A stretch of DNA of 53,943 nucleotides from Alphaproteobacteria bacterium (GTDB lineage Bacteria; Pseudomonadota; Alphaproteobacteria; SHNJ01), in NCBI GenBank assembly GCA_004295055.1, contig SHNJ01000034.1, positions 1-53,943 of the forward strand. Direction: 5' to 3'. Numbering within the stretch: position 1 is the first letter of the stretch; every line of letters begins with the position of its first letter. The translations under genes were made by a program, and so were the position numbers. Shown here one piece after another: positions 10,419 through 30,126 of the stretch. A model generated the notes under the pieces. It saw only the letters and a list, made by a program, of their open reading frames with translations. It did not search any database and had not been told where the DNA came from.

Positions 10419-11168
10419 CTAAAGTGGCTCACCTATCTCCCCGTTAGGGATTCCATTTGGGTTATTACCGCCACCCCCGCCACCGCCATCGCCGGGAAAA
10501 GTGCCCCGATAAATATAAACCCCGATTTGATTGTTGTTATTGCTAACAATTGTTTCAGGTGTCAGTTCATTGTCTGGAAAAGCCGCACGAACCTGGCTTA
10601 GCACCGCGGCAAAATGACTATTATCCGCGCTTGCCTGTATCTGGGCAAAAACACCATTGCCGTCCACTTTTTGATATGTCCAACGGCTAAAACCGGATAC
10701 AGATTTCAAATTAAAAGCGGACTCATTGGTATCAAAGGCATATTTATTTGTTCCTTCACACCAAATATTTTTTAAATCGGCGGATAAAACCGCGCCACCC
10801 TGCGCGGCCGATCCCAAAGAACAACTTCCTGCGGTGTCATCATTGGCCAATTCCTTGCACCCGGGATACTGTAGATAAGGCTGATCGGCAACAGGCTGTG
10901 TAGCGGTTACATTGCCTGAATTCATTCTGGCGGCACAGCGGCGGATTACATTACGAATAATTTCCGCCTGTTGCACCACCGATGTGCCCTGGGTCGTTTC
11001 ATCGGCGGTTACTTGATCTTGTTGCGCCGTATAAGTGGCGATCGCAACGCTGATACTTAGCAGAGCGATAAGCCCAATAATCATGGCAACAACGCCAAAT
11101 CCGGCGTTGGCCGGTTTTCTATCCGCGTTGCTGTTTATTTTGCCAACCAAACTTGCAAAGTATTGCAT
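10419..11168 (-). CDS. type IV prepilin-like protein 3
   Basis: The ATG at 11168 is preceded by GGGGA; an in-frame ATG at 11186 has no such site. The 249-residue product has a short basic leader ending in NAG followed by Phe and a hydrophobic helix (FGVVAMIIGLIALLSIS), the G/F junction cut by prepilin peptidases. The Glu expected at mature position 5 is Ala. The globular part holds several Cys (RRCAAR, YPGCKE, GSCSLG, IWCEG) that may form disulfides, and a glycine run near the C-terminus (DGGGGGGGN). The start lies inside the previous prepilin gene (34-bp overlap), so the two are translationally linked. Probably a minor pilin; the exact role is unknown. Confidence 0.75.
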   Translation of the reverse strand: MQYFASLVGKINSNADRKPANAGFGVVAMIIGLIALLSISVAIATYTAQQDQVTADETTQGTSVVQQAEIIRNVIRRCAARMNSGNVTATQPVADQPYLQYPGCKELANDDTAGSCSLGSAAQGGAVLSADLKNIWCEGTNKYAFDTNESAFNLKSVSGFSRWTYQKVDGNGVFAQIQASADNSHFAAVLSQVRAAFPDNELTPETIVSNNNNQIGVYIYRGTFPGDGGGGGGGNNPNGIPNGEIGEPL

Positions 11169-11842
11169 ATGCTGTTCCCCACACATGGACTGACGTTAAT
11201 TTTGCCGTCGTTCGCATCATCGCCATTTCTGATTAAAACCTGGGCTTCGTTCGGTCCGAATTTGTCCCGGACCTTGCGCAACACCCAGTCGGTATCGGTC
11301 GAACTGGTGCGCCCTTGGGTTGTAATTAACAACGAAACGCCCTTATATGCATCATTCGAATCGCCTATAATAGCGTATTTCCAGGGTTCAAATCCCGGGA
11401 TAGGATCGGGAAAGAAATTACCTTCGGAATTATCCCAAACCGAAGCGCTGCTAGGCGACAGACAACGTAAATTTTTGGCATTAGCAATTATAGGATTGCT
11501 GGTCGAAACATTGGTGCAATATCCATCGGCAGTATAATTGGTGTTGGCCTGAGTTCCACCCTGAGTCGTATCATCGCATGCCGGAAACCGTTGATAAGCG
11601 GTAGGCCCCACGCCGCTAGTTTGCACTTGTACCTCGGTCATACACAACAGTATATCGGACCGGATCTTCGATGCCTGGCCATAAATTTTGGATACTTGAA
11701 TATCGTTATTTTGCACGCGGGTATTGCTGCGGCTGCCGACACTGATCGCCGTAGTCAGGGCCGCCAAAAGCGCAATGGACATGAGGATATAGGCAAAGGC
11801 GCCGAATCCAGCTTGGTTTTTATCATTAGCCTCTAAAATCAT
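11135..11842 (-). CDS. type IV prepilin-like protein 2
   Basis: The best start is the ATG at 11842, with GGGGA six bases upstream; earlier in-frame ATGs (11875, 11869, 11854) lack good sites. The 235-residue protein has a leader ending NQAG, then FGAFAYILMSIALLAALTTA, a type IV prepilin N-terminus with a G/F cleavage site but Ala, not Glu, at mature position 5. The globular region has Cys pairs (FPACDD, DGYCTN, NLRCLSP, SPCVGNSICN). It is shifted to a separate transcript from prepilin 1 by a terminator and is followed by overlapping prepilin 3, virB10 and virB11. Resembles prepilin 3 in layout; likely a minor pilin. Confidence 0.75.
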   Translation of the reverse strand: MILEANDKNQAGFGAFAYILMSIALLAALTTAISVGSRSNTRVQNNDIQVSKIYGQASKIRSDILLCMTEVQVQTSGVGPTAYQRFPACDDTTQGGTQANTNYTADGYCTNVSTSNPIIANAKNLRCLSPSSASVWDNSEGNFFPDPIPGFEPWKYAIIGDSNDAYKGVSLLITTQGRTSSTDTDWVLRKVRDKFGPNEAQVLIRNGDDANDGKINVSPCVGNSICNTLQVWLAK

Positions 11843-11964
11843 TATTTTCCCCATTTTTAAGCCTAACATTCGCATCTTAATACAATATTAACATAAACTT
11901 GATTTAAATCCGGCAAGATACGAAATATTGTTTATTTTCAGTGATTTTAACGTGTTCCAAGAAA

Positions 11965-12012: not shown

Positions 12013-12765
12013 CTATTCCGATACGACTTTGTACCAGAGATATTCCCGAGCATCGTCAGCAGCGCCAGCGTCCAATTGAACGCAGGCTTCTGGCCATGCT
12101 TGCAATACTTGGCCGTTGATGAAATCCGCACCAACAGGAAGCGTTACTTCTAAGGTTGTACCATCGCCTTCCAAAATTGCGCCAACAGCAGCCAAAGTAG
12201 TTGCGGTGACCAATAAAGGAGGATTGGCGGTTAATAACATACCATTCACTTGGTTGTTGATTTGGCGGCAAACATCCAATTTCAAATCACCAATTACCAT
12301 AACAGCGCTCGCGCCCGTGCTAGCACCTCCCGTGAAAGTGCCCACGCCAGTAACGTTTACACTGCGTAATAGGTGATAACGGCTAAAGTTGTTGGCATTG
12401 GCGGTATGGAATGCCTGCGTGCTGACTTGTTGTACGGTAGTACCGCCCTCGGTTGTGTGATACAAACAGGTGGTATTGGCTGGGAAGTTGTTATTATCGC
12501 AATTATTGAGCTGATCGTTAGCAGCATTGGCGGTAATCGAGGTTTTATCCGTGCCGTTGGCAACCATACGTTCGAAACCGGAACGCAAGTTAGCGCCTTG
12601 TTGTAACAGGGTCGATGCTTGAACGCGCGCTTGTTCGCGACCGGACTGGGTCGAAGAACCGCGGCTGGCGATTGCGATCGCCGAAACGATTGCGGCAATC
12701 AAAATGACGGCCAGCAAGATAGTACCAATCGCGAAACCGGACTGGCGGTTGATGGTTTTGGACAT
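12013..12765 (-). CDS. type IV prepilin-like protein 1 (probable major pilin, PilS-like)
   Basis: The ATG at 12765 follows a perfect GGAGG site; the longer frame to 12822 lacks one. The product is 250 residues with a nine-residue leader MSKTINRQS, then G/F and a hydrophobic helix FAIGTILLAVILIAAIVSAIAIA. This is the class of prepilin processed by PilD/PilU peptidases; mature position 5 is Thr rather than Glu. The globular domain has Cys residues in NNCDNN, TTCLYH, DVCRQ and EACVQ and ends in DAREYLWYKVVSE. It has its own strong promoter, an upstream dyad and a dedicated terminator, which fits the most abundant pilin. R64 PilS, with the same gene neighbours, is the closest concept I can offer; direct similarity cannot be tested here. 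Confidence 0.8.
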   Translation of the reverse strand: MSKTINRQSGFAIGTILLAVILIAAIVSAIAIASRGSSTQSGREQARVQASTLLQQGANLRSGFERMVANGTDKTSITANAANDQLNNCDNNNFPANTTCLYHTTEGGTTVQQVSTQAFHTANANNFSRYHLLRSVNVTGVGTFTGGASTGASAVMVIGDLKLDVCRQINNQVNGMLLTANPPLLVTATTLAAVGAILEGDGTTLEVTLPVGADFINGQVLQAWPEACVQLDAGAADDAREYLWYKVVSE

Positions 12766-12864
12766 GAATTTCCTCCGTGCTGTTAAAAACCAAACTGTTG
12801 AAATCTCCCTATAAACTCGCAAATTCGTGATTACAGGGTAATAAAATTCGTTGTATTACCTATA

Positions 12865-12978: not shown

Positions 12979-13437
12979 TTAATTTTTAATATTAATTTCC
13001 CGGCGAACGGCCGACATCACGATGCGGTATTTAACCCGTTGGCATCCATCACCCGCGCACATTTCAACCGTAGTCCAACGGGCATTAGGTATGGCCGTCA
13101 TAATATCATAAATGGAAATCAGCCATTCATAATAAGCGGCCAAGTCGGACGCTTCGGTAAAAATGGATTTGGATGGCGAGTCATACCCGACTTTTAATTG
13201 TGGATGCATCTGCCGGACCATATCCGCCACTTTTTCATATTCTTTTTGATCGATCGGAACGTCTTTTACCTCGACCGACGGCGGCGCAGTTGCCTCCGCC
13301 ACTTGCAAAGACTGGCGCGATGTAACCAGCAATCGCGCCTCGTTCACCGATCCCAGAATCAACACGGCTGTCAGGCCCCATACGATCATGGTTGCGCCCG
13401 ATGCGCCAGCCTTAGCAATGGATTCCATTAAACTCAT
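12979..13437 (-). CDS. small bitopic membrane protein, PilM-like (R64-type pilus)
   Basis: A 152-residue protein with a single N-terminal membrane helix (about 14-31, SGATMIVWGLTAVLILGS) and a periplasmic domain containing two nearby Cys (EMCAGDGCQ). In size and topology it matches the R64 thin-pilus protein PilM (about 145-150 residues, inner membrane), and its neighbours are PilO-, PilR- and PilQ-like genes. The identification rests on context and topology, not on clear motifs. It starts 8 bp after the preceding PilO-like gene ends, and ends upstream of the prepilin 1 promoter region, so it closes the pil sub-operon. Confidence 0.45.
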   Translation of the reverse strand: MSLMESIAKAGASGATMIVWGLTAVLILGSVNEARLLVTSRQSLQVAEATAPPSVEVKDVPIDQKEYEKVADMVRQMHPQLKVGYDSPSKSIFTEASDLAAYYEWLISIYDIMTAIPNARWTTVEMCAGDGCQRVKYRIVMSAVRREINIKN

Positions 13438-13445
13438 ATACTATC

Positions 13446-14312
13446 CTATTTTTTCTTAGTGTCCTTAGGTGGCAATTCCACAACCAAAACATTTTTATCG
13501 ACATCGCGGCGCAATACCAGACCTTTGCCGAATTGTTCGATATAATCGTTCAATACGAAAGTGGGCAATTCGACTTTCCAAGACATATTGCCACCTTTTT
13601 CAATTTTAAAATAATTGACGAAGCCGCCCGTATTCGATGTTAACGCAATAATTTTCTGCATCGCATAAACATCCTGCAAGATAGGCTGCGTTGAAATATT
13701 TTTTAACTGGGCAACGGAATTGGAAATCGAAGTTTGCGATTTTTGCCGCAAGGCATCGACATCGGCATCGATATTGGCCGACCAGCTGGCAAAACCAATC
13801 CAGGTCAAAAATGACAATACCGCCAATACAAAACCGATTAAAATCGTGTTGCGAGCGGTTTTTTCGGCGCGCTTGATTGCGCCCATGCGGAATCCTTCCC
13901 ACGGAAGGGCGGCCGCATCGTTAGCGCTGTACGTTGGAACATCGTGCGATGCGATAAACGCATCGACCGATTGCCGGTCGCCAACATAGGAATATAATTC
14001 ATCACCCTTGCGAACGACAACCGCATAACCAGATTCAGAAATGGCCAGATATGCGCCATCGCCTTGATGGCCTTTCATACCAGGCAAAGAGGCGGCCAGT
14101 GGAGTAACCGCGTTCATATGCGCCGAAAAATCTTCGGATGCGGCGGCAATATAAAATACTTTTTTGTTTTCAATGTTGCAAAGCAAGTGCACGTCATCGC
14201 GATCCAGCGCATAGGCCGCATTGTTATAGGCTGCTTCGCGCGGATCCTCGTTACCATAAGGTACGGCGGCGGCGATGATCGAATCGGGGGTAAAAACGTC
14301 AAGATAACGCAT
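13446..14312 (-). CDS. PilO-like type IVb pilus accessory protein
   Basis: 288 residues with about 170 cytoplasmic residues, one membrane helix (about 176-198, TILIGFVLAVLSFLTWIGF), and a periplasmic part of about 90 residues beginning with a predicted coiled segment (DADVDALRQKSQTS). The N-terminal part carries β-rich stretches such as VFYIAAAS and GYAVVVRKGDELYSYVG. This layout, with an N-terminal cytoplasmic domain and a middle transmembrane helix, recalls the R64 pilin accessory protein PilO, which recruits the pilus motor. Context supports it: GspF/PilR follows upstream and a PilM-like gene downstream. No catalytic motif is visible; function by similarity is tentative. Confidence 0.5.
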   Translation of the reverse strand: MRYLDVFTPDSIIAAAVPYGNEDPREAAYNNAAYALDRDDVHLLCNIENKKVFYIAAASEDFSAHMNAVTPLAASLPGMKGHQGDGAYLAISESGYAVVVRKGDELYSYVGDRQSVDAFIASHDVPTYSANDAAALPWEGFRMGAIKRAEKTARNTILIGFVLAVLSFLTWIGFASWSANIDADVDALRQKSQTSISNSVAQLKNISTQPILQDVYAMQKIIALTSNTGGFVNYFKIEKGGNMSWKVELPTFVLNDYIEQFGKGLVLRRDVDKNVLVVELPPKDTKKK

Positions 14313-14426: not shown

Positions 14427-15653
14427 TTAATAGGCGCCGGACATACCTTCGAGAGATTCGGTGAGGCCTCTGTTCTGCACCCATAAGACCCACATAGCGG
14501 CGCCAGCGGCCAGGAATGTATATAGAATAACGAAAGCGACACCGCCCACCACAATCTGGCGCAAGCCGCGCTTAGCCTGATCGCCGCGTTCATGCGCAAT
14601 ATTCATTAACATATTGGCCAATTGCTCGCTGTTTTGGTGCGCGCCAATTTCAATCAACTCGGCACGGGTCATGATTGGATTGCGGAACGCGCGGTCGATC
14701 GTATCGCCGCGCATGACGCGATCCAGCACCTGCCGCCAAAGCGCCTGTACGTGTTTCACCGGCGTGGAATCGGCGGCAACCTTACATGCTTCATCAAACT
14801 GCACTTTTCCTTTGACCATACGGCCAACGATACCAAAAGTTTCGGCCATAGCCGTATTTTCGATAAAAGTTTTAATTACCGGCATTCTGCGCACCATTGC
14901 CGATGAAATTTCTTCCAGCTTGCCACTGCGCAACACCAAGGAAACCGCCAGGAATACGCCGGCAATACATAATAAAATCGCTACAATTAGCAAAAATCCA
15001 TTGATAAAATAGGCTGTGTCTAAGGCGCTTTTAAATTCCGCCATCATTTTTGCATCTTTGGTATCGACACCATTTGTTTCCAGCCAAGGCAAATAACCAA
15101 ACTGCACGCCGATAACCGTGGAAATCGATGTCGAAATATCGAACCACAGCCAGCCGATCGCCGCAGACATCATTTTCCAGGTTTTGCCTTTTTCTTCCAT
15201 ATGCTGCAGCGCGGATTCGATAACTTCTTTCAAAGCGCCGATACGTTCGCCGGCGGATAAAATAGCCAGAACGCTTCGATCAAACATACGCAATTCGCGG
15301 ATTGCGGTAATGAATCCGCCGCCGCGGCGTAAAACTTCGACGCCTGGTTCCAATTCAATCCGTTTTTTACGGTCGCCCTCCCCTTCGATCACGATCCATA
15401 ACGCGCGGCCTGGCGACATGCCTGCCTGCACGTGGAATGACAGCGATCTTAGAAAGCTGCGTTTAAATTTAGGGCTGATATATTCGCGTTCATACCAAGC
15501 CGGTTTCCGCTGACGAATCGACAAGGGAATGCCGCCCATATTGGCGATTTCCTCACGCACCGATTTGGCATCGGGAAGGAAAAAATCTTGAGCGACCTCT
15601 TTCATGCCCATCGAGGTTGGCTGTAAATATTTTGCGGTATAAAATAGCGCCAT
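14427..15653 (-). CDS. GspF/PilR-type inner-membrane platform protein
   Basis: The inner-membrane platform of type IV pili and type II secretion couples the ATPase to pilin insertion. The 408-residue protein has the two T2SSF domain halves: FLRSLSFHVQAGMSPGRAL with ILSAGERIGALKEVI (first), and MAETFGIVGRMVKGKVQFDEACKVA with IGAHQNSEQLANML (second). Three membrane regions occur near 165-190, 215-240 and 375-400. It starts 3 bp after the GspE/PilQ stop, as expected for an ATPase-platform pair, and corresponds by order to R64 PilR. Confidence 0.9.
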   Translation of the reverse strand: MALFYTAKYLQPTSMGMKEVAQDFFLPDAKSVREEIANMGGIPLSIRQRKPAWYEREYISPKFKRSFLRSLSFHVQAGMSPGRALWIVIEGEGDRKKRIELEPGVEVLRRGGGFITAIRELRMFDRSVLAILSAGERIGALKEVIESALQHMEEKGKTWKMMSAAIGWLWFDISTSISTVIGVQFGYLPWLETNGVDTKDAKMMAEFKSALDTAYFINGFLLIVAILLCIAGVFLAVSLVLRSGKLEEISSAMVRRMPVIKTFIENTAMAETFGIVGRMVKGKVQFDEACKVAADSTPVKHVQALWRQVLDRVMRGDTIDRAFRNPIMTRAELIEIGAHQNSEQLANMLMNIAHERGDQAKRGLRQIVVGGVAFVILYTFLAAGAAMWVLWVQNRGLTESLEGMSGAY

Positions 15654-15656
15654 AGT

Positions 15657-17507
15657 TTATCCGTGTTCGTCTGCTTCGCCGCCACGATCTTGGATCGAGA
15701 AAGATGGGACATCCGAAGAATTCGATTCCAATGTCTCGGTACCGGCCAATGCAATTTCAGGATCGATAACGCCGCGCCGCAACAAAGCCGCGGCGCTTTC
15801 CGCGCGGGATTGGAAGATAACGCCTTGCAGACGTTTGATATCCGCTGTATTGCCTTCCAGCATGTAGTCGGCAATGCGATGCCGCAATTCCGGATCGAAT
15901 GGAATAAACAAAGTTTCCGGCAGCAAAGCGCGGCCGCGATACCCGGTATATCCGCAAGAATGGCATCCCGATGGGTTGGCAAGGAAAATGGTTTCTTCCG
16001 GATCAAGATTGAAGATAAACAGATTCTTTTTCAAATGCTGTTCGGCTTCGCGTACGGTCGCCGGCGTTTTGCAAGACTGGCACACGCGTTTAATAAGGCG
16101 CTGATTAATGGCCGCCCAAAGATAATGGCCCAGAACATAGGTACCGCTGTTACGGTAATCTGGCGGGAACATGCCGGACAGACGTTCGATTGTTTGCAAA
16201 GCATCCGCGGCGTGGATGGTGGTCAACACAAAGTGTCCCGATTCCGCCGAACGCAGCGCGGTTTCGGCAGTAATACTGTCCCGCAATTCGCCGACAACCA
16301 GAATATCAGGGTCATGACGCAACTGGGCGCGAAGCAATGCCGAGAATGTGGTGCCAATTTCCGGCAAAACCTGTGCCTGGCGAACCAGGGGAATTCGGTA
16401 CTCCACCGGATCTTCGACGGTCATCACGTTCAAACGGTGGCGATCGAGTTCGCGAATAATCGCGTATAGAGTCGTTGTTTTACCAGAACCTGTCGGCCCG
16501 GACAGGATAACCACACCGCCGGTTTTATTTTTAATGCTGGCAAGCGCACGCATCCGTTTCAATAGAACGGGAGAATCTTTAAACAGGTCATCCAGCGATA
16601 ATAGCGATTCCGGATCGAGCAAACGCATGGTGATGGTTTCACCGCCATCAATTGGCATCGCCGCGCAACGCACGTCGATCTGCCGCCCCTGATATTGGAA
16701 CGGAAAACGTCCGTCCTGCGGACGGCGGGAATCGGAAAAATCCATACCCGCGTCGTTTTTCAAACGGGTGCAAAGACGTTTCGACGCCTCTGGCGACATT
16801 AAGTAACGATACTTCAAGTCACCGTCGATACGATAAGAAATCCAGCAACCGATATTATCTTCGACGTTATCGACGTGAATATCCGATGCGCGCGATTGGG
16901 CGGCGTCAATCATCAGATCGGTAATAATTTGTTGCAATAACACGCCTTCATCCGGTTGCGAATTCAGACGGTCGATTTTACGGCCCAAAGCCTCTTCGTC
17001 GACATGGGTTTCGGTACGAAGAACCGCCAATGTTTCTTTTTTATCGCGAGGGTCAATGACAACGTCATCGATGTCCAAGCGTGCGGTGCGCGCCGCGATA
17101 ATCAATTCGTCTTTTTCCGCTTCTGTCAGAGAACGTGTCGCGGCAACATATAATTTTTTTCCAACACGACGCAAAGGACGCACGCCCAAGCGGCGGCACA
17201 AATTGTATGGCAAAGCCAAGCGCAAAAAAGTGGCGCTGTTTTGCGCCGAATTGGCGGGATCGCCGCCTTCTTCCGCGGCCTTGGCGCGCTGTAAATCCAC
17301 CAACGCTTCTGCCACTTGCGCCCGCGTGGCAAATCCATTGCTGACGATAATATCTTCGATAGATCCGCGCGCGCCCAAGGATTGCAAGCGGCGATGCTGA
17401 CGCAAAACGATATCCAGCTGCGCCTGGCTGATGACTCCTTTTTCAATCAGGATATCGCCAGTAGTAGCGGTTTTAACTCTGGTTTCTGTTTCTGCAGCAT
17501 CTAGCAT
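15657..17507 (-). CDS. GspE/PilQ-type ATPase with N-terminal domain
   Basis: Pilus or secretion assembly ATPase, 616 residues. An N-terminal MshEN-like region (about 15-80; ILIEKGVISQAQLD, DIIVSNGFATRAQVAEAL) is followed by the N2 domain (RASDIHVDN, RPQDGRFPF) and the ATPase core: Walker A GPTGSGKT (337-344), TVEDPVEYR, Walker B DPDILVVGELRD, His box LTTIHAADAL. A tetracysteine zinc site (CQSC ... CHSC) is present. It directly precedes the GspF/PilR gene, so this is the cognate motor of the platform. By order it corresponds to R64 PilQ. The last 90 residues (RALLPETLFIPF and after) continue the usual C-terminal subdomain. Confidence 0.92.
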   Translation of the reverse strand: MLDAAETETRVKTATTGDILIEKGVISQAQLDIVLRQHRRLQSLGARGSIEDIIVSNGFATRAQVAEALVDLQRAKAAEEGGDPANSAQNSATFLRLALPYNLCRRLGVRPLRRVGKKLYVAATRSLTEAEKDELIIAARTARLDIDDVVIDPRDKKETLAVLRTETHVDEEALGRKIDRLNSQPDEGVLLQQIITDLMIDAAQSRASDIHVDNVEDNIGCWISYRIDGDLKYRYLMSPEASKRLCTRLKNDAGMDFSDSRRPQDGRFPFQYQGRQIDVRCAAMPIDGGETITMRLLDPESLLSLDDLFKDSPVLLKRMRALASIKNKTGGVVILSGPTGSGKTTTLYAIIRELDRHRLNVMTVEDPVEYRIPLVRQAQVLPEIGTTFSALLRAQLRHDPDILVVGELRDSITAETALRSAESGHFVLTTIHAADALQTIERLSGMFPPDYRNSGTYVLGHYLWAAINQRLIKRVCQSCKTPATVREAEQHLKKNLFIFNLDPEETIFLANPSGCHSCGYTGYRGRALLPETLFIPFDPELRHRIADYMLEGNTADIKRLQGVIFQSRAESAAALLRRGVIDPEIALAGTETLESNSSDVPSFSIQDRGGEADEHG

Positions 17508-17522
17508 ACAAAGACCTGCCTA

Positions 17523-18062
17523 TTATTTCTTGACGCCTGGCGTTGCCGGTGGTGGCGTTGTGGTAGTGGATTTATTTTCAGCGGTTTTAGTTTCCTCGCG
17601 TTCTTTCTTTTTGGTTTCAGGAGAACGCGATACAACCACGCCATTGCCAACCTCGGCTAAATAAACTTCATCACCGGTTTTTTCAGCGAATAGCTGCACT
17701 TTATTGCCGTTCACTTTTACTTTGACGCGTGTGCCTTCATAGGTGAAATAATCACCGCTACGCAGGTAATAAACCGTGTCGCCTGCTTTTAATACCGCTC
17801 TTGATCCAGCAGTAGCTACCAAATTTAAATCGCTAAAAGTATTTTTCAGTTCATCTTCGTCCGGTTCCAGCAATTTTGGCGGCATAACGGGAACAGGCGG
17901 AGTTGTCTCTACTTTTTTTTCTGGCGCTTTTGGTGCCGACGCCGCCGCCGATGGCCGTGCAAAAGGATTTCCGGCTTGCGCGAAACTTGGTGTCACTTGC
18001 CCCAAAATCAGTAACAATGTCAGGGAGAATAAAATAATTTTTTTCTGACCGGCGACATTTTT
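17523..18062 (-). CDS. periplasmic PilP-like pilus assembly protein
   Basis: The ATG at 18062 has GAGG seven bases upstream and begins a signal peptide ending near PSFAQA; a longer frame to 18125 is not supported. The 179-residue product has a Pro/Ala/Lys linker, a core of β-strands (DTVYYLRSGDYFTYEGTRVKVKVNGNKVQLF, seen as several short strands), and a charged, Thr/Pro-rich tail. Size, signal peptide and position between secretin and PilQ genes match PilP of R64-type pili, a periplasmic factor that contacts the secretin. Sequence motifs alone are too weak to be sure. Confidence 0.5.
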   Translation of the reverse strand, partial: KNVAGQKKIILFSLTLLLILGQVTPSFAQAGNPFARPSAAASAPKAPEKKVETTPPVPVMPPKLLEPDEDELKNTFSDLNLVATAGSRAVLKAGDTVYYLRSGDYFTYEGTRVKVKVNGNKVQLFAEKTGDEVYLAEVGNGVVVSRSPETKKKEREETKTAENKSTTTTPPPATPGVKK

Positions 18063-18267
18063 CATGATAAACCTCGAATCCACTATAGCAAAGGGAAGTA
18101 AATTTTTAATAATCAGACCAAGCACTCTTTCCCATCATTCCTGATCTGCTTTCCGCACGCAAGCGTAAGATAAATTATTGATATTATTTGTTTTAATCTG
18201 TGCTTTGGATGCCGAGCCCTGGTTTACTTATGGTATCATAAATATCGGGGCAAAATATGGAAAAACC

Positions 18268-20256
18268 TTATTGCCGCGCGCCGCTTTTACCATAATATCC
18301 GAAACTGTCCGCCAATGGATCGGCGGGAGCCTGTGCGGCTGGCGAAACCACGGGAGCAGCAGATTCTGTAGTTGGCAATCTGCCACGGGATTTGGAATAT
18401 GTATCCCCAGCTGTTACCGCATCATACATACGGTCATTGGGCGCTTGAGAGGCCGATGGAACGGATTCCATCACTGGCGCGGAACCATTGTCCCACGAAT
18501 TTTGACCTTTATTAGGAATCGTGGTCATCGATGGATTATAGTCCTGATACCACCCGCCATTCGATGTTGTATTTAATGTTACAGATGGTTGAGGCTGAAC
18601 GGTCGATTGAATCGGTGCGCCCCAGGACTGTTTCCAATCATCATTCGCCGGAGACATTGTAGGAACGCTAACCGCTCCATCCGGGGTGTAAATCATCTGC
18701 GAACTGATATTTGGATCGGCGGCGACCCCCGTCAAAAGATTGTTTGTTCCCTGCGGAGGCACCAAGGCGGAAGACCCCATAATAACCGTGGGTTTTGTGT
18801 CCGCAACCGTTGGTTCAGGATGCTTAAACCGAACAATGCGCGGCTTCAAAACAATCACCAATTCCGAACGTTCCAGAGCATCGGTTTTAGAATTCAGCAG
18901 CGGAATCCAATCGCCAATCGAAAATGGGCCGGAACGGTCTTTTTGATCGCGAGTTTGATTGATACCTGCGATCAGTATGGCATCGCCTGGACGCACCCGA
19001 ACGCTTGTGTTCAATTCGCGCTTGGTGGTTTCAGGCAACCGGATCTGGGTATCCTCGACTGAAACCGGTTCCAAATTCACCAAGTCATCGATACTCAGAC
19101 TGATGCTGGTAAAAATGCTATTGTCGCTATAATCGCCAAGAATCTCCGTTTTCAAACCCAAAGACAAATCTTCAGTTTCAACCGATTTTGAGTTGCCGCT
19201 AACGCCTTCGGTGGTGGTTACAGAAACCTTGGACACATACCGTTTTTTGCGGCCAACCTCAAATTTTGCTTTGCTGCCCGACAGGATCGTAATCGTCGGA
19301 CGAGAAATGGTTTGCACATTGCCTTGCGAGGATAGGAAATCGAATAAAACGTTAATATTAAAACTGCCGGACGTAAATAGTGCGCCAAAACTTAATCCGC
19401 CAGCGGCAATCGACTCGGCACCGGCATTGACAATGTTCAAAGCGGGAGTGCCCCGGCCCAAACTTTGGTCGAAACTGAAAGTGCTGTTGTCAACAGAGGT
19501 GGCCAAGCTGCTTTTGCTGACTTGCTGCCAATTAATACCGGTGGCTTCGCGGTTGTTTAATGCAACTTCCAAGAAATAAGTTTCATAGACGATCATCACT
19601 TTGGAATCGCGCAACCGTTCTAAATAAGAACTGACATTATCAAATACTTGGCGGCTTGCGCGGAAAGTGATCATCCGGCTTGATTTATCAAGCTTCACTT
19701 CCTGTGCGCCAAGATTGGTAATGACATCCGACATTTCTGTCAAAGCATCCGCCAGTGGCGGCAACGGTAAAATAAAGCTGCGATCCTTGGAAAGACGAAC
19801 CAAACCTTTGCGGTAGGTATAAAATACTCCGGCCGTCTCGCTAATTCTTTCCATTACATCTTGCAACTTGCCGGTGTAATTGGTGATATTCACCTTAACA
19901 TCGTTGGCGGTTTCATCCGTAGAAACGGCGATTCCTTTATCCATCATCAACAAACGAAACGCCTCAACCGCGGTCGCATCGATCGCGCTGAAATTATCGA
20001 CCATAATTTCCGGCAAGGCGTCGGATTGTTCCAAAGCCGTTGGAACCAACATATTATCGGTCAATTCCAAATCCAAAATCGCTTCTTTGCTTTCTTTAGC
20101 AATGACATTTTCAGGCAAGGTTGGACGTTCCACAGTCTTTGGAACATCTGCCGGGATATTTTCCCGCGGCATGGTACATGCCGCCAAAAGCAAACAACTA
20201 AACAGCAGAATATTTTTTAATTTTTTGGTTTTAATGCTTTTGTTGCTGCCGATCAT
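18268..20256 (-). CDS. lipoprotein secretin, PilN-like
   Basis: Secretins form the outer-membrane gate of type IV pili, type II and III secretion. This 662-residue protein starts with a lipoprotein signal (lipobox LLAAC, Cys near residue 27), as in R64 PilN and TcpC/BfpB. An N-terminal ring-like domain (residues ~75-180; DVKVNITNYTGKLQDVMERI) is followed by the secretin core: VYETYFLEVALNNREATGINW, FLSSQGNVQTISRPTITILSGSKAKFEVG, the signature VRVRPGDAILIAGI, and ELVIVLKPRIV. A Ser/Pro/Asn-rich tail of about 150 residues follows, unusually long. The gene begins 2 bp after the virB9 stop, so two outer-membrane components of different machine types are in one transcript. Confidence 0.9.
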   Translation of the reverse strand: MIGSNKSIKTKKLKNILLFSCLLLAACTMPRENIPADVPKTVERPTLPENVIAKESKEAILDLELTDNMLVPTALEQSDALPEIMVDNFSAIDATAVEAFRLLMMDKGIAVSTDETANDVKVNITNYTGKLQDVMERISETAGVFYTYRKGLVRLSKDRSFILPLPPLADALTEMSDVITNLGAQEVKLDKSSRMITFRASRQVFDNVSSYLERLRDSKVMIVYETYFLEVALNNREATGINWQQVSKSSLATSVDNSTFSFDQSLGRGTPALNIVNAGAESIAAGGLSFGALFTSGSFNINVLFDFLSSQGNVQTISRPTITILSGSKAKFEVGRKKRYVSKVSVTTTEGVSGNSKSVETEDLSLGLKTEILGDYSDNSIFTSISLSIDDLVNLEPVSVEDTQIRLPETTKRELNTSVRVRPGDAILIAGINQTRDQKDRSGPFSIGDWIPLLNSKTDALERSELVIVLKPRIVRFKHPEPTVADTKPTVIMGSSALVPPQGTNNLLTGVAADPNISSQMIYTPDGAVSVPTMSPANDDWKQSWGAPIQSTVQPQPSVTLNTTSNGGWYQDYNPSMTTIPNKGQNSWDNGSAPVMESVPSASQAPNDRMYDAVTAGDTYSKSRGRLPTTESAAPVVSPAAQAPADPLADSFGYYGKSGARQ

Positions 20257-20258
20257 AT

Positions 20259-21563
20259 TTATTTTTCCACTGTCGGGGCGGGGGTTACATAGGTGTTGCC
20301 ACCGAACCAGTTAGAAATACCACCAAGGAAGCCCGGCATGCTAGGGGCAGAGCTACGTGGCATTGGTCTTGGACCCATTGGCTGTGGCGGACGCATCACA
20401 ACAACTTGATTCGGCATGGATGGTGCGACATTGCGCATACGATCCTGAAACTCCGCACTGCGTGTAGATAAAGGACGATCCATACGGTGCACACAAACGA
20501 CGCGATTGCCATTACGCATAGTGAAATCACCCACCGCTTCCGCAATTAAAATATTGCCGGTTGGACCGGCAGTTCTGGTATTCACCATGGTGTCTACACC
20601 GTCAACAACCTGATACAATACTGGACGGCGGACATATTCCGCCTTTTTGCCAAAATCAAAATACGTCCAGATACCGTCGTTAAAAACACGCTCTGGCGCG
20701 ATTTCAGCGTCATCCATAGTCGGCGCCAGGATACGCATATCAAATTTCAAGTTTTCCGGCTTAAAGGCGATTTCACGAACATAATCCGGTGGTGTTGTTG
20801 CGGTTTGCTTAGCGCCGGCAGGGCCAGTCGCAGCGGAATCCATGCTGGCGTTGATAACATCATTTACTGTGGCGCCGCCCGATACCGTAGCCGGGCGATT
20901 GGCGTCAACATAAACGGTGATATCCGTTACTTGATCGGAATTCCAGCCTTCGGAACGGATATAGAAGCTGTATACGTTACCAGAACCGCCAATAGCCGTA
21001 ATATTGGTATCGGCACCGGCGTGCGTCGGACGAACAGCCATCATATTCGGCTTAATGCGCTTAGCATCAAATACAACCGGATCGCCGACAATGATATTGG
21101 TGATTTGTTCCCATGCGGGCAATTGAATGGTGGTTACCATATATTCGCGGGTACGAACGGCCATTACATAATCCGGACGCCAAACATAACGCATCACGCC
21201 AGGAGTAAATTGTCCGGCGGAAGCGTATGGAGAGTCCCAAGCTTTCTGCAACGCGCCCAGCGAATAGCTGGCGGAGCGTTCCATGACCGGATATTTGCCA
21301 TCCGATTGATCCATAATATCGCGCTCTACCTGACTTTGCATCATATCGGGCGGTGGCGGCGGTGTTGGAACGCCGCCTGTTGTTTGCGGCGGACGCGGCG
21401 GCGTTGCCACCTGAGGAATAGAGCCTGGCGCGGATAAAACCGCATTTGGCGAGGATGGGGATGGTGGCGGCGATGGTGGAATATATTGCGCGGCCGCGAT
21501 GCTAGCCCACGCAACGGTTGCAACTAGTACCAAACTGAAAGGGAGGGTTTTTATAGGTTTCAT
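20259..21563 (-). CDS. virB9: VirB9/TrbG outer-membrane core protein
   Basis: VirB9 forms the outer-membrane core complex with VirB7 and VirB10. The 434-residue protein has a signal peptide (cleavage near IAAAQ), a long Pro-rich linker (residues 28-75), the N-terminal VirB9 domain (MRYVWRPDYVMAVRTREYMVTTIQLPAWEQI in shorter blocks, SFYIRSEGWNS) and a C-terminal domain with the ILAPTMDDAEIAPERVFNDGIWTYFDFG region and GNRVVCVHR. It is longer than many VirB9 proteins (about 250-300 residues) because of the linker and tail. The start overlaps the virB8 stop by 4 bp (ATGA), so translation is coupled. Confidence 0.9.
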   Translation of the reverse strand: MKPIKTLPFSLVLVATVAWASIAAAQYIPPSPPPSPSSPNAVLSAPGSIPQVATPPRPPQTTGGVPTPPPPPDMMQSQVERDIMDQSDGKYPVMERSASYSLGALQKAWDSPYASAGQFTPGVMRYVWRPDYVMAVRTREYMVTTIQLPAWEQITNIIVGDPVVFDAKRIKPNMMAVRPTHAGADTNITAIGGSGNVYSFYIRSEGWNSDQVTDITVYVDANRPATVSGGATVNDVINASMDSAATGPAGAKQTATTPPDYVREIAFKPENLKFDMRILAPTMDDAEIAPERVFNDGIWTYFDFGKKAEYVRRPVLYQVVDGVDTMVNTRTAGPTGNILIAEAVGDFTMRNGNRVVCVHRMDRPLSTRSAEFQDRMRNVAPSMPNQVVVMRPPQPMGPRPMPRSSAPSMPGFLGGISNWFGGNTYVTPAPTVEK

Positions 21564-22327
21564 TGTCTTTTCTGTCTTGCGTTGTAGGAGGTAACGGTGA
21601 AGCCCAAAGGATTGATGTACTGCTCACTAAATGAAACTTTGCGCTCCACATAATCAACAGTTAAGGTTGCCTGCCAAGTCAGTTTCTGCACTTCCCTGCC
21701 AGTATAGTCCACATCGGTAGTTTCGAATTCCACAATATATCCACTTCCTTGACGATTCACTACAATAATATCCACATACCTATTAATGCGCCGGGTACGG
21801 AATTCATTGTAAACTTTGGAAGCCGTCTGCTGGAATATAGCAAATTGTTCCTGGGAAGTGCGGTTATAAAGATAGGTAGAATAACGTTCGCCCATTTCCT
21901 TGTCGTCGGGAAGAATTTCTTCGCGGATCTTAACATATTCGCCGACCAATTTTTCGGTCATAACGTCAAAACCCATGGTCCCGCGGACAAAAGGTTCGAT
22001 TTTGACGACTTGTTCGCTTTTGGGTGAAAAAGTAACCAGCATTGGTTCCACCCGTTTTAACGGGGCCAGCATAAATATGGCCGCGGCCAAGGAAATATTG
22101 ACCAAAAGGCTTAGATACAAGGCGATCGCATAGGCGCGCGCGGTCCATAAATAACGCCGGCTTTCCAATGCAGGCACATGTACCCCGGCCGGATATCGCC
22201 CAACCTTATCGGGATTTTTGTTTTTCTGCTCCGGCGAATTGGATGTGACAACGCCAGGAACACCATCCGTAGCGGATGGGGCTGCGTCCTCTTTTTTATC
22301 GCCGGATTTCCGGAAAGTGAAAGCCAA
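21560..22327 (-). CDS. virB8: VirB8/TrbF-like inner-membrane protein
   Basis: 255 residues: a cytoplasmic N-terminal region of about 65 residues with charged and Pro residues, one membrane helix (about 66-88, AIALYLSLLVNISLAAAIFML), and a periplasmic NTF2-like domain with the family patterns REEILPD, YLYNRTSQEQFAIF, YNEFRTRRIN and the conserved C-terminal NPLGFTV(T)SY motif. VirB8 nucleates assembly of the type IV channel in the inner membrane and contacts VirB9/VirB10, which follow in the same transcript. Confidence 0.92.
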   Translation of the reverse strand: MAFTFRKSGDKKEDAAPSATDGVPGVVTSNSPEQKNKNPDKVGRYPAGVHVPALESRRYLWTARAYAIALYLSLLVNISLAAAIFMLAPLKRVEPMLVTFSPKSEQVVKIEPFVRGTMGFDVMTEKLVGEYVKIREEILPDDKEMGERYSTYLYNRTSQEQFAIFQQTASKVYNEFRTRRINRYVDIIVVNRQGSGYIVEFETTDVDYTGREVQKLTWQATLTVDYVERKVSFSEQYINPLGFTVTSYNARQKRQ

Positions 22328-22366: not shown

Positions 22367-22537
22367 TTAGCCGTTGATCATCCATTCATTATAATTTTGT
22401 GGAATTTCGATGCAGGCACATGGGCTTTTTTTCAATTCGTCAACATCGCTGCCAATACCGATTGGTTCAGGCACCGTGGTAGAACCGCAGCCGCTTAATG
22501 CCAAAGCAAACATGGAAATTAAAAATAGCTTTTTCAT
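22367..22537 (-). CDS. VirB7-like small lipoprotein
   Basis: A 56-residue lipoprotein. The ATG at 22537 has CGGAG eight bases upstream; the signal has lipobox ALSGC (Cys17). The mature part of about 40 residues has a CxC pair (SPCACIEIP). VirB7 lipoproteins stabilise VirB9 in the outer membrane; size, lipobox and position just before virB8 support that role, though VirB7 proteins share little sequence. A possible -10 box (TATAAA, complement of 22598-22603) lies about 60 bp upstream, so this gene probably starts the virB7-virB8-virB9-pil transcript. Confidence 0.6.
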   Translation of the reverse strand: MKKLFLISMFALALSGCGSTTVPEPIGIGSDVDELKKSPCACIEIPQNYNEWMING

Positions 22538-22705
22538 CAGACACTCCGAGTGGAATAAATAGAATCTTGCCAAAGAATATCCGACAAGAGTCTATCATTT
22601 ATACAGGTTTCGGGGGATAAAAAAACAAGAAATATAAGGTTTTCAACAAGCTATTATAAAAAATGACCCGGATTTGGCGGTTTATTCGATTGTAGCAGCC
22701 AAGAA

Positions 22706-22749: not shown

Positions 22750-23709
22750 CTACCTGCCGCCATTTGTCTTGGATTTATCGAACTTCAAACCAGTGCCCGG
22801 TTGTTTTGGCGCGGTATTTGGCGGCGGGGCCGGTGTCGAAGAAGTTGGCTGTTGTGGCGCAACCCCTGCAGCTGGTTGTTGCTGTGATTGTTGAGAACCG
22901 GAACCATTGACATCAACATTCACCGGCGAATTCTGATATATGGATGGTGTTGGGTAAGGACGGCCGGCGCGTAAATTTGCCCGATGCAAATCCCGTTGTT
23001 CCGATACGTGCTGCCATGGGCTGTAATTACGGACGCGGGTAAAATCAGCTGGCGAAATATTTCTACCCCAAGATGGACGTGTTTCAGAAACCACTATTTC
23101 CTCGCGCGTAGCGGGACGAACTCCTTGCAAGCTGCCGTCCCAGCCGGAAATTTGCATCATCCAGGCCTGTCCAGGCGCAATATTTAAATTGCGAACCAAC
23201 ACAAAATCTATGTCTTTAAATCCTTGCAACAAACCGCCGGGTCCGTCTTCCATCAATTTGGTAACGGTTCCCTGTTGTTGGAAAGTATAGGCTAACAACT
23301 CCCGCTGGGTGGGTTGATAGTTAAGGATAGGCACATATTCATGCTGACCCGTCAATGCATGCACGCTTTCTTTTCGAAATGTTCCATCCGCTTCAAAATA
23401 TAGAAAACTTAGATAACGGTTATTGCGTTCGTTGTTATTAGAAACAACATCGGCGATCAATCCTGTCAATGCATCATTGGCTTTGGAATCGACGCTGGCA
23501 AAGCCCGGACCCATTTGCCGAATACCGGCCATAATATCGGCAACGGCAACCGTGTCCATAACACTAGCCGGTGCGGTGCGGCCGATTTCTGCCGGTGCGC
23601 TGCCCGATTGTGGCCCCGATTGGCATCCCACCAATCCGGTTAAAACAGTTGCGCCCGTCAACCACGCGGCGGCTACATTTGCAGATAATCCGTTTTTAGA
23701 CCTTGCCAT
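22750..23709 (-). CDS. predicted lipoprotein of unknown function in the virB cluster
   Basis: 319 residues. The N-terminus has a basic region and hydrophobic stretch ending in a lipobox-like LVGC (Cys29) followed by Gln, so the mature protein is probably outer-membrane attached. The body (about 60-235) has no family motif I recognise; segments include RYLSFLYFEADGTFRKES and LNIAPGQAWMMQISGWDG. The last 70 residues are Pro/Gln/Ser-rich and disordered. It has its own promoter and terminator, placing it as a single-gene transcript between the virB5-like and virB7-like genes. Co-location suggests an accessory subunit; function unknown. Confidence 0.7.
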   Translation of the reverse strand: MARSKNGLSANVAAAWLTGATVLTGLVGCQSGPQSGSAPAEIGRTAPASVMDTVAVADIMAGIRQMGPGFASVDSKANDALTGLIADVVSNNNERNNRYLSFLYFEADGTFRKESVHALTGQHEYVPILNYQPTQRELLAYTFQQQGTVTKLMEDGPGGLLQGFKDIDFVLVRNLNIAPGQAWMMQISGWDGSLQGVRPATREEIVVSETRPSWGRNISPADFTRVRNYSPWQHVSEQRDLHRANLRAGRPYPTPSIYQNSPVNVDVNGSGSQQSQQQPAAGVAPQQPTSSTPAPPPNTAPKQPGTGLKFDKSKTNGGR

Positions 23710-23814: not shown

Positions 23815-26514
23815 TTATTCTCGGAAATCGTCTTTGATTTCCGGGCTGAAATAGACCGCTGGACGCGAGGTGAACGGTTTGTTCAAGCATAAAAATTCAC
23901 GGGCGATATTGGTTGGGCATTTTGGCGGCAATGGCCGGTAATTTTCATAATACTCCGCTTCTGCGGTACCGAGTGGAATCTCGGTATTAACTTTCAAAAC
24001 GCCATCATGAACAGTGGTCACATCCGCGGAAGAATCCACGTAAACGCCAAAGCCCAACCGGCAGCTGCGATTGTTGGAATCCATCACCTGATTGGCAAAG
24101 GCCAGCAAGTTGTTCAACTGCGTTCTGTTGATTTCGATTTGTTCTAGCTGCCGCTGTCTCCAGGTACGATAAGCTTCGGAATTGGCGTTACCGTCCGCCG
24201 TCGCATCTACATGGGCGACAGCGGCGTCTAAATTGCGCAACCGTTGTTGCACATCCTGGCGCAAACGGCTGATTTGATCGGCGATGGCAATGGCAGCGTT
24301 CGCAGCCCCTTCCGATGTCGATAAATCGCGGCTTGGAACATACGGCGATAAAAACGCGGTCTCGCCGCTATCCGTGCCGCGTGGGTTTTGTTCAAAGGCC
24401 AAACGATCGTCCGCATCGTTCAATCCTTGGACCATGGCCCAGAATTTTTCATTTAACTTCTTGATATCTTCATTCACGCGATCGCGATTGATTTTCGCGC
24501 TGAACACATCGGGATTGCTGCCGCATTCCCGGCCGCTGCGGCGGCCAACGCCGCAAGCATCTTCGTACCATTTATCGGCAACTTTTTCCGACTGGAACCA
24601 TTTACCCATCAACCCAAGCGGTGGATTAGCCACAGCGCCCCGGAAAGAATATTGAATGCGGCATTGATCGCCGACAATAACTTTGTGGTAATTTGGATCG
24701 CTGGCATCTTCCAACCGGTCATTAGGCACATTTGCCGGAGCCAATGTCATCCGCGTGCCGCTTGGATAGTTGTTATTGATACAATAGACATAACGCGGAT
24801 TTTCGCAATTGCCTCGATACCAGCCACCATTATAATTGCGGCACCAGGTTTGCATGGTGCAATTATGTCCGCCTGGTTCCAAATTCAAAATATCGCGCGG
24901 CGATGCCATCAAGGTTTCCGATACCCGGCAGGCTGCATTGCTCATCCGTTGGAATCGGCTCATTAAATTCGATGCGTGCTGGGTTGCGGATTCCACCGTC
25001 GGTTCCGGCAAATTATAAGCAAATGGATCGATCGATATCATCCGATTAAGCAAAGAAGCTTTTGCCATATTTGGATCCGGGAAAGGCGAATGGCCCAATG
25101 TGGCGGCAACCTGCCCCCAGAAATGATCGGCTTGCGTTTGCGACCATGCCTTACATTGCATAATATCGTCGAATCCAAGCGCGGCCTGTTGCATATCCGC
25201 TATTTGAATGACGGTATTGTGCAGTTCTGCGATCACCGCGGCGCGTGACGAAGCCGTATTAAACAATGTTTCTTGAGGTTGCGCGCCGCTATGGCCGTTT
25301 TCAGAATAATAAACGCAATGCGATGGGTTGCCTAAACGTTGCAAACGATCCATGGCCGCCGCGGTGAAATCGGCATGGCCTGGATGATCCGGATCTTGCG
25401 GACAATATCCATCGCGGCCCTGATCCAGTTGCGTAGCATCCAACAAGGCTCCTGGATGAACATCCGGCACACCGCCATGATTTGGCAATTCTTGCATGCC
25501 GCCATTGCCATCGCTGGAACGGAAGCCCATATTGAGATTCAAATTATGAACCATCTCAAATCGGATCAAATAATCGCCAGAACCTGGCGATGGATTGTAA
25601 ATATGGCTTGGCGACGCATCCGGGCCAGCATTGGCGATTTCATCCTGGGCCGCACTATATCTTTCATATGGATCGATAATCGGCGCATCATCTTTCATAT
25701 AAGCCTGCGGGGCGGCGACGATCGGAGCACTTTGCAGTTGTTGCAAACTTAAAAATTGATTTCGTGTCGCCAATAAATCCGCAGTGACAACATGCAACGC
25801 CATCCGCAGCCGTAACCCGGCAGCCACCACGCCATACAATCGGCCGATGGTATCGGCGTGCGTAATTTCCCATTCGTATGCTTCGATGGCTCGTTGTGTA
25901 TGCGATTTCTCGCCATCTGGTGATGGCTGTACGATCGCTTTTACCGCTTCCGCCTTTGCCAACATTAACCCCACACTTCTGGCATATGCTTCGGCGCGGC
26001 GTTTACGAATAGCCAGCTGGGTTTCCATATCCGGATGTTCCCGGCTGTAATAAGTTTGCAGCACGCGGGAGTTTACCTTGCGAGGATCGCGCATTTCCTG
26101 TGCACTGAGATTGATATGAATCAAGGCGCGATCTTCATGATGATAATCCGCGATGGCGGCAATACTTTGCGAATAGAAATCGGTACGAAAATCATCCGTA
26201 TCGTGATCGCCAGTCAGCGTGCTGGTAATATCATCCATAATTTCATTTAATTTTTGGTACTGTTCGACGATATGATTGACCTGTTCTAGCAACGCGCGTC
26301 CTTTCGCGAGCTGTTCATTATCATCAGTCAATTTCAACATCCCCGGATTAGGGCAAAGTGGGCAGCGTTCGAAATCGTCCACCGGTGGAGGCAAACAAAT
26401 CGGCGTGCCGACAGGCGTAAATTCGCATTCATATTGCGCCAAAACAGGCGGCGCCTGCAGAACACAAGCTGCAAGCGCAACCAAAAAACCGCATGTTTTG
26501 GCAAAGCGGAACAT
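23815..26514 (-). CDS. very large secreted VirB5-like protein
   Basis: 899 residues with a signal peptide ending near PVLAQ. The first ~230 residues parallel the VirB5-like protein that precedes it: a helical segment with QLAKGRALLEQVNHIVEQYQKLNEIM, and the block METQLAIRKRRAEAYARS versus IETQLGVRKRRQTKFQRD in its neighbour. VirB5/TrbJ proteins are minor, tip-located subunits of the secretion pilus. The remaining ~650 residues have no recognised domain and hold most of about 18 Cys, including clusters ERCPLCPN, NCTMQTWCRN and KCPTN, suggesting disulfide-bonded extracellular folds; a late helical stretch (residues ~745-810) resembles a coiled coil. The gene starts 15 bp after its neighbour's stop in the virB3-virB4-virB5 transcript. 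A tip adhesin is a reasonable guess, not shown. Confidence 0.65.
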   Translation of the reverse strand: MFRFAKTCGFLVALAACVLQAPPVLAQYECEFTPVGTPICLPPPVDDFERCPLCPNPGMLKLTDDNEQLAKGRALLEQVNHIVEQYQKLNEIMDDITSTLTGDHDTDDFRTDFYSQSIAAIADYHHEDRALIHINLSAQEMRDPRKVNSRVLQTYYSREHPDMETQLAIRKRRAEAYARSVGLMLAKAEAVKAIVQPSPDGEKSHTQRAIEAYEWEITHADTIGRLYGVVAAGLRLRMALHVVTADLLATRNQFLSLQQLQSAPIVAAPQAYMKDDAPIIDPYERYSAAQDEIANAGPDASPSHIYNPSPGSGDYLIRFEMVHNLNLNMGFRSSDGNGGMQELPNHGGVPDVHPGALLDATQLDQGRDGYCPQDPDHPGHADFTAAAMDRLQRLGNPSHCVYYSENGHSGAQPQETLFNTASSRAAVIAELHNTVIQIADMQQAALGFDDIMQCKAWSQTQADHFWGQVAATLGHSPFPDPNMAKASLLNRMISIDPFAYNLPEPTVESATQHASNLMSRFQRMSNAACRVSETLMASPRDILNLEPGGHNCTMQTWCRNYNGGWYRGNCENPRYVYCINNNYPSGTRMTLAPANVPNDRLEDASDPNYHKVIVGDQCRIQYSFRGAVANPPLGLMGKWFQSEKVADKWYEDACGVGRRSGRECGSNPDVFSAKINRDRVNEDIKKLNEKFWAMVQGLNDADDRLAFEQNPRGTDSGETAFLSPYVPSRDLSTSEGAANAAIAIADQISRLRQDVQQRLRNLDAAVAHVDATADGNANSEAYRTWRQRQLEQIEINRTQLNNLLAFANQVMDSNNRSCRLGFGVYVDSSADVTTVHDGVLKVNTEIPLGTAEAEYYENYRPLPPKCPTNIAREFLCLNKPFTSRPAVYFSPEIKDDFRE

Positions 26515-26529: not shown

Positions 26530-27408
26530 CTAGCAGGCGTTATTATTGCAAGTACCCAATCGCCCATCCGACCCCCTTGGATCATCGGTGGGCAATTGCG
26601 TTAACGCTTGCATACCCAAAGCCGCGTTTTGATCGGCAAGCAGACTCATAATTTTAATGTTTGTATCCGCATCTTCCTTAATCTGTTCCGACAACAGAGT
26701 TAACTGGGCAATCTGGGTATCCGGCTTTGTCCGGGTCATTTCATTGGCGATCATAATTTTATCCGGCGCAGTCGCTTGAGCTGTTGTCGAATTGGTCAGC
26801 ATGTTCTGCATGTCGCGCTGGAATTTGGTTTGGCGTCTTTTTCTCACGCCCAATTGCGTTTCGATGGATTTGTCATTTGGATCGGACCATAACGATTCCC
26901 GCATAACGGACAATGCTTTTTGCGGATTACGCATAACCTTATGGACTTTAGCGGGATCATTCAGCGTCTGGTTAATGTTACCGACAAATTCGGTGTAATA
27001 ATTGGTGTCATACGGCAAGAACGTCAGGGCGATATCGCAAGGATCGTCTGGAAAATCCGGCAAACGAAAATCAAAATTGAAATTGAAAAAGAACGGCGGA
27101 AAACGAGTATTACAAATGGTATTGGCAATATTGCCCAACGTTCTTAAAAATGCGATCTGATCTTCTTTCAAGCCTAGCGTTTTGGTAATCAATTTTTGAT
27201 AATTGGTGATATCTTGCAATTCCTTGACCGCTTGATAGGCTTTGTATAATTGCTCATTTTCTTTTAAAAAATTCTCAATATCGAAATTCATAATGACGCC
27301 GCCGCCGCCAGCGCCGCCGCTTTGCGCATGCGCTTGGTGCGGAGTGAAAATGATACTTCCTAAAAACAAAATACCAAGGATTGCTAGAAATTTTTTACAA
27401 TTCGTCAT
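26530..27408 (-). CDS. VirB5/TrbJ-like protein
   Basis: 292 residues. The ATG at 27408 overlaps the virB4 stop (ATGA) and has GGAG eight bases upstream, so translation is coupled; a longer frame to 27462 is inside virB4 and is rejected. A signal peptide ends near QAHAQ, then a Gly-rich stretch, a helical region (ENFLKENEQLYKAYQAVKEL), and the block ETQLGVRKRRQTKF shared with the next gene. Such helical, secreted proteins after virB4 are usually VirB5 (minor pilus subunit). The C-terminus (TCNNNAC) carries two Cys. Confidence 0.7.
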   Translation of the reverse strand: MTNCKKFLAILGILFLGSIIFTPHQAHAQSGGAGGGGVIMNFDIENFLKENEQLYKAYQAVKELQDITNYQKLITKTLGLKEDQIAFLRTLGNIANTICNTRFPPFFFNFNFDFRLPDFPDDPCDIALTFLPYDTNYYTEFVGNINQTLNDPAKVHKVMRNPQKALSVMRESLWSDPNDKSIETQLGVRKRRQTKFQRDMQNMLTNSTTAQATAPDKIMIANEMTRTKPDTQIAQLTLLSEQIKEDADTNIKIMSLLADQNAALGMQALTQLPTDDPRGSDGRLGTCNNNAC

Positions 27409-29849: not shown

Positions 29850-30126
29850 ATTTATTCCTTTTTGTTTGGATCAGATTCTTGGTTCTTACGTTGGCCTTGC
29901 TCCAGCACATCAAGATTCTATAGGCATGCGGTTCGCGCGCGCCGATAATAGCCAAAACGATATGGTTTCCGGCCAGAACCGTCAGCGCCCATAGTGGGTT
30001 CAGTTCAAACGCAAACCCAAAAATCATGATCGAACCTGCGATCAGAAAGTTCATCAGCGCCAATTCCACCGGCGCCCAAAACATCAAAGGCGGGTTGGCA
30101 ATCGATCGCATAACGCGTTGCGGCAT
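29839..30126 (-). CDS. virB3: VirB3-like inner-membrane protein
   Basis: 95 residues from the ATG at 30126, which has AGGAG six bases upstream; the longer frame to 30177 is less likely. The sequence RSIANPPLMFWAPVELALMNFLIAG and a second hydrophobic segment (LTVLAGNHIVLAI) give two membrane helices and the RP/NPPLM start typical of VirB3/TrbD. The end (AYRILMCWSKANVRTKN) is basic. VirB3 associates with VirB4, which overlaps it downstream. Confidence 0.88.
   Translation of the reverse strand: MPQRVMRSIANPPLMFWAPVELALMNFLIAGSIMIFGFAFELNPLWALTVLAGNHIVLAIIGAREPHAYRILMCWSKANVRTKNLIQTKRNKFVP

Follow-up and report, generated by a model that had tools for sequence, protein, structure and literature searches.

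Among envelope-spanning channels, secretins represent one major design and the VirB7/VirB9/VirB10 rings another. A link between the two had been hinted at by N0 domains, which are present in DotD and in VirB7 of Xanthomonas citri. DotD is an N0-domain lipoprotein in the outer-membrane ring of the type IV secretion system (T4SS) of Legionella, Dot/Icm (PMC2951367), and in X. citri VirB7 the N-terminal part binds VirB9 (PMC3093366). A different kind of association is found in R64/IncI and IncI2 (TP114), where a T4SS and a thin type IVb pilus (T4bP) with a secretin lipoprotein and GspE/GspF-type genes are encoded close together on one conjugative element. The type IV pilus (T4P) of TP114 acts in mating-pair stabilization beside the T4SS (PMC9045228).

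Of the known T4SS parts, DotD and X. citri VirB7 come closest to the proteins described here, and the IncI plasmids provide the nearest known pairing of a T4SS with a T4bP. Like our proteins, DotD and X. citri VirB7 are T4SS-encoded lipoproteins with a secretin-type N0, and the structural model of a secretin-like protein from a related locus matches DotD with a Z score of 8.3. They consist, however, of N0 only and have no secretin domain, whereas here either a full secretin or, in a pilus-less gene order, a larger N0-N1 relic lies beside virB9, in both cases on top of a separate VirB7-like gene. The transfer genes of IncI plasmids are Dot/Icm-like and those here are VirB-type; moreover, the pil module here lies between virB9 and virB10 of a chromosomal-looking locus, and its secretin scores below the PilN cut-off.

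To our knowledge, a secretin between VirB9 and VirB10 is known neither from DotD or X. citri VirB7 systems nor from IncI plasmids, and no published description of such a cluster was found in a search of mostly open-access journal literature. A full secretin beside VirB9, together with relatives keeping the N-domains only, offers an intermediate series on which the link between secretins and VirB rings can be tested.

A type IV pilus module between virB9 and virB10

The window, by which we mean the whole analyzed stretch of 53,943 nucleotides from an uncultured alphaproteobacterium, contains a T4P assembly module placed between virB9 and virB10 of a VirB/VirD4 T4SS locus. All genes of this series lie on the minus strand and are given here in their order. 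The first ones encode a VirB6/TrbL-like protein (33568-35793; PF04610, 2.9e-9), a VirB2-like pilin (30300-30638; PF04956, 18.8 bits, under the cut-off of 27.9), VirB3 (29839-30177; PF05101, 1.6e-6), the VirB4 ATPase (27405-29849; PF03135, 3.9e-15), and a 310-aa protein which has no family above cut-off and is VirB5-like by position alone (26530-27462). They are followed by two genes without a Pfam match and without an assigned function, one for an 899-aa protein with a signal-like N-terminus (23815-26514) and one for a 319-aa protein (22750-23709), by the gene of a small lipoprotein that is conserved in the clade and was taken as VirB7 from its position and lipobox (22367-22573), and by virB8 (21560-22327; PF04335, 6.8e-25), which overlaps virB9 by 4 bp (21560-21563).

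Behind virB9 and the secretin gene, the T4P module continues with a 200-aa periplasmic protein without a Pfam match, PilP-like by position and found after the secretin in two further genomes (G001 and G020) too (17523-18125), a GspE/PilB-type assembly ATPase (15657-17507; PF00437, 3.9e-84), a GspF/PilC-type platform protein (14427-15653; PF00482, 6.2e-15), and two small membrane proteins with homologues in window-type T4P clusters, one of them PilO/PilM-like with no Pfam match (13446-14312) and one of 152 aa (12979-13437). Three pilin-like genes with a prepilin-type N-terminus and homologues in stand-alone T4P clusters close the module (12013-12822, 11135-11875, and 10419-11186); the first of them gave a weak NCBIfam prepilin match. 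Their products share a Gly-Phe cleavage-like site (GFAIGTILL, GFGAFAYIL, and GFGVVAMII), and Glu at mature position 5 is absent from all three. The series ends with VirB10 (8759-10276; PF03743, 1.8e-43), a predicted lipoprotein with the lipobox LTAC and an Ig-like domain (PF22544, 1.8e-4), the VirB11 ATPase (7740-8750; PF00437, 1.5e-23; TIGR02788, 210.7 bits at a cut-off of 250), and the VirD4 coupling protein (4386-6404; PF02534, 2.8e-53). Between VirD4 and VirB11, a second GspE-family ATPase of 386 aa without the N-terminal part is encoded on the plus strand (6579-7739; PF00437, 3.2e-100).

One locus thus holds VirB4, VirB6, VirB8, VirB9, VirB10, VirB11, and VirD4, the set by which a VirB/VirD4 T4SS is recognized, and also a secretin, GspE, GspF, and pilins, the set of a T4P, the pilins being identified by their N-terminal motif and by homologues in other T4P clusters. 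With the VirB/VirD4 system of Agrobacterium it shares homologues of VirB3, 4, 6, 8, 9, 10, and 11 and VirD4 and a VirB2-like pilin; it differs in the extra T4P module and in its VirB10. Judging from the flanking genes, which include argininosuccinate synthase and rlmN, the T4SS locus looks chromosomal. No prepilin peptidase was seen in the cluster, no relaxase was present among the 40 window proteins scanned, and a search against Rfam gave no match. The cluster is also flanked by two lytic transglycosylase (SLT) genes on the plus strand (2380-3237 and 36426-37202), which could act as VirB1.

The virB9-secretin junction

An earlier note on this DNA had described virB9 and a lipoprotein secretin gene as lying 2 bp apart in one transcript. 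Both open reading frames were found on the minus strand, and the family matches agreed with the description. VirB9 (20259-21563; 434 aa) belongs to the CagX/TrbG family (PF03524, 5e-26, 92.2 bits at a cut-off of 34.2) and reaches 76.9 bits with the equivalog model TIGR02781, under the cut-off of 217.7; by these scores it is a divergent VirB9. The secretin (18268-20256; 662 aa) has the lipobox LLLAAC, N-domains, a secretin domain at residues 308 to 476, and a low-complexity tail of 185 aa. Its match to PF00263 (1.4e-20, 74 bits at a cut-off of 27.5) places it in the secretin superfamily, and its full-length relatives also exceed this cut-off.

The two genes are joined as GTGGAAAAATAA-AT-ATG, with a gap of 2 bp (20257-20258). 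A promoter at this position would have spoken against the proposal of the earlier note, and a simple scan of the minus strand gave no promoter-like match between the two genes. With the short gap and a conserved gene order, a single transcript is plausible from the sequence. The 142-bp gap after the secretin gene (18125-18268) carries a promoter-like match, which places the secretin gene nearer to virB9 than to the remaining pilus genes.

The label PilN, which the earlier note implies for the secretin, finds no support, as the protein scored only 83 bits with the PilN model TIGR02520 at an equivalog cut-off of 287.65. The best curated model was that of MshL (TIGR02519), with 113 bits at a cut-off of 250.2. 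The long Ser/Asn/Pro tail that had been remarked on is real (Ser 12%, Pro 12%, Ala 11%, Asn 6%), but among relatives it varies from 3 to 302 aa, and G133 has none. Because of this variability the tail was discarded as an indication of function and given no weight as evidence. Two more secretins are encoded on other contigs of the same genome.

As to what the secretin does, we give a probability of roughly 0.4 to a double role, in which it gates the T4P and also docks on the VirB ring through its N0/N1 domains. In the window organism the protein would form an outer-membrane lipoprotein ring, most likely the gate of the T4P, while its N0/N1 domains in the periplasm would contact the ring of VirB7, VirB9, and VirB10. 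The base of the pilus and the channel of the T4SS would in this way be linked or have an outer-membrane assembly in common. The pilus might then be used for contact with the target before VirD4-dependent transfer.

Hybrid loci in other genomes

In a sample of 385 genomes of the class, the adjacency of VirB9 and secretin recurred in G001, G033, G020, and G133, with 40 to 75% identity of VirB9 to that of the window; the gap between the two genes ranged from 1 to about 75 bp. Pilus genes follow the secretin gene in G001 and G020, and the contig of G033 stops inside the secretin gene. Elsewhere in the sample, VirB9-bearing genomes had their listed matches for secretin and VirB9 more than 10 kb apart or on different contigs. 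With its recurrence in these four genomes, the adjacency goes beyond chance. Relatives were not found on viral contigs. Between the window and G001, identity over the interval 15657-22327 was 91% for the pilus ATPase, 74% for VirB9, 67% for VirB8, and 53% for the secretin, the envelope parts changing much faster.

G133 had been considered as a case of a full secretin without a pilus ATPase, a combination that would have decided the question, but this was rejected, as only one more gene follows the secretin before its contig C5 breaks off. Contig C2 of this genome ends in PilO/PilP homologues beside VirB10, VirB11, and VirD4, and the ATPase of G133 therefore probably falls into an assembly gap. 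G133 also has a second, distant T4SS locus (L145, G133:C11) with VirB10-, VirB4-, and VirB11-like genes.

A scan of named genomes added the cultured Telmatospirillum siberiense 26-4b1, together with related records of Rhodospirillales. Here a TcpQ-like gene comes after VirB2 to VirB9, and behind it are the gene of a true PilN secretin (312.7 bits with TIGR02520) and further pil genes in an R64-like order, and in the records checked VirB10, VirB11, and VirD4 are on a separate contig. The names TcpQ and PilO/PilP were read from the sequence in this type and were confirmed by no curated family. In a secretin tree, the Telmatospirillum secretins fell with the PilN group (100/100), and the window-type hybrid secretins formed a group of their own (87/87) with T4P secretins from plasmids of Rhodoferax ferrireducens and Methylibium petroleiphilum as their nearest neighbors. 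The Telmatospirillum-type T4P, of the R64 type, differs from that of the window, and related VirB9 operons have been joined by T4P modules of two different types. As a named strain, T. siberiense makes the analogous join accessible to experimental work.

These loci bear on the possibility that the junction is a chance operon fusion without functional meaning. In the Telmatospirillum-type genomes virB9 ends the VirB2-9 block, and anything could follow it. However, the order has been kept over 40 to 75% VirB9 identity and in several families, and the same kind of modules was joined twice, and we regard a chance fusion as very improbable.

Harder to set aside is the explanation that two separate machines are made together. 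The secretin would then be only the gate of the T4P, the pilus would bring target cells near, as do the thin pilus of R64 and the T4P of TP114, the T4SS would use its own VirB7/VirB9/VirB10 ring, and the operon would only time expression, as with the separate, co-expressed machines of R64/TP114. The T4P module has its own secretin, ATPase, platform, and pilin-like genes, and the T4P of TP114 works in mating-pair stabilization alongside a T4SS (PMC9045228). In Telmatospirillum, likewise, the T4SS is paired with a pilus operon, there of the true PilN type. Related T4P clusters also stand alone: eight other genomes have one with no VirB genes near, and the plasmids of R. ferrireducens and M. petroleiphilum, which carry the nearest secretins outside the hybrids in a similar gene order, have no adjoining VirB genes in the stretches read. 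Two observations count against docking: the full secretin is accompanied by T4P genes, and T4P clusters that have no VirB genes in their neighborhood also contain related secretins. We consider separate machines nearly as likely as docking. The T4P cluster on the R. ferrireducens plasmid (L112:14524-17953) contains a tandem pair of secretin-family genes.

The pilus-less order and its secretin-like lipoprotein

All four sampled genomes of one order (G011, G144, G242, and G323) have the gene order VirB7-like, VirB8, VirB9, secretin-like lipoprotein, VirB10-VirB11, the lipoprotein in the slot between virB9 and virB10 having 380 to 508 aa. At this locus none of the four has a homologue of the pilus ATPase or platform protein, and no homologue of the window pilus ATPase was found in their whole genomes at 1e-10. 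Their other GspE-family matches were VirB11. G011 had in addition a Tad-like ATPase, the best match to this family in that genome and encoded on the same contig as its one full secretin. Order-level searches around G011 and G133 gave no further genomes.

A full-secretin HMM picked up the slot proteins of G011 (2e-21) and G323 (8e-15) over the lipobox and the N-domains, and none of the four slot proteins matched PF00263 at E values up to 1. The proteins of G144 and G242 were undetectable as secretins when searched alone and were assigned by position and by alignment with those of G011 and G323; that sequence detects only two of the four as secretins counts against docking. A profile of the four degenerate proteins matched a secretin profile with a probability of 99.2% (E value, 1.7e-19), compared to 0.7% for a VirB9 control. 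A structural model of the G011 protein, whose alignment contained true secretins and which is thus not fully independent, had a pLDDT of 68 overall and of about 80 to 93 in the N-domains. Its best match was the T4bP secretin BfpB (4.6e-11), and it also matched the N0-N1 domains of T3SS secretins and PilQ (Z scores of about 9 to 10) and DotD (8.3), so the degenerate protein of G011 is predicted to fold like secretin N0/N1. The model of the G144 protein, made without true secretins in the alignment, was poor (pLDDT of 46), and its best PDB match, again BfpB, was weak (3e-4). The degenerate gene is intact, and between G144 and G242 it showed a dN of 0.19 and a dS of 0.98, and the resulting dN/dS of about 0.19 indicates purifying selection.

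In a tree of concatenated VirB8, VirB9, VirB10, VirB11, VirD4, and VirB4, rooted on the Telmatospirillum type, the pilus-less order was nested within the hybrids of the window type; hybrid G133 fell outside, a split supported at 100/100, and the inner order was weakly resolved. As the pilus-less order is nested in this way, the pilus module was probably lost there and the shrunken N-terminal part of the secretin kept, and the secretin gene probably adjoined virB9 before the pilus was lost. A shrunken copy that stays in place where the pilus genes are gone suggests that the secretin became part of the secretion machine.

Separate machines alone would leave unexplained why a secretin-derived lipoprotein is kept under purifying selection between virB9 and virB10 where the pilus module is absent. 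One could instead assume a late co-option, in which the window protein is a plain T4P secretin and leftover N-domains became a VirB7/DotD-like ring component in the pilus-less order only, so that nothing would follow for the window protein. In agreement with this, only the N-domains can be detected in the degenerate proteins, and DotD and X. citri VirB7 are examples of N0 lipoproteins in T4SS rings (PMC2951367, PMC3093366). Yet co-option would be easier for a protein that already touched the ring, and the gene probably stood beside virB9 before the loss; we consider an exclusively late co-option unlikely.

The docking of a pilus-gating secretin on the VirB ring remains our preferred reading. 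The retained relic lends support, short of proof, to a putative contact of the secretin with the VirB7/VirB9/VirB10 ring. Extending this, we tentatively place the secretin in the outer-membrane ring of the T4SS itself, a view to which we give somewhat less than even odds: the T4P base and the VirB channel would form one hybrid envelope machine, and in the pilus-less order the N-domains, placed between VirB9 and VirB10, would be an extra and fixed part of the core. The suggestion in the earlier note of a single outer-membrane complex is supported in part, being favored by the degenerate lipoprotein kept between virB9 and virB10 in an order nested among the hybrids, and weakened by the T4P genes that accompany the full-length secretin, with which it would have the ordinary function of a gate for the pilus.

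The N-terminal lipobox of the window VirB10 is also present in its homologues from all four genomes of the pilus-less order, from G020, and from L105, L106, L108, and L109. Three of these genomes contain, in all, five other VirB10 copies, which lack a lipobox and have the usual hydrophobic helix.
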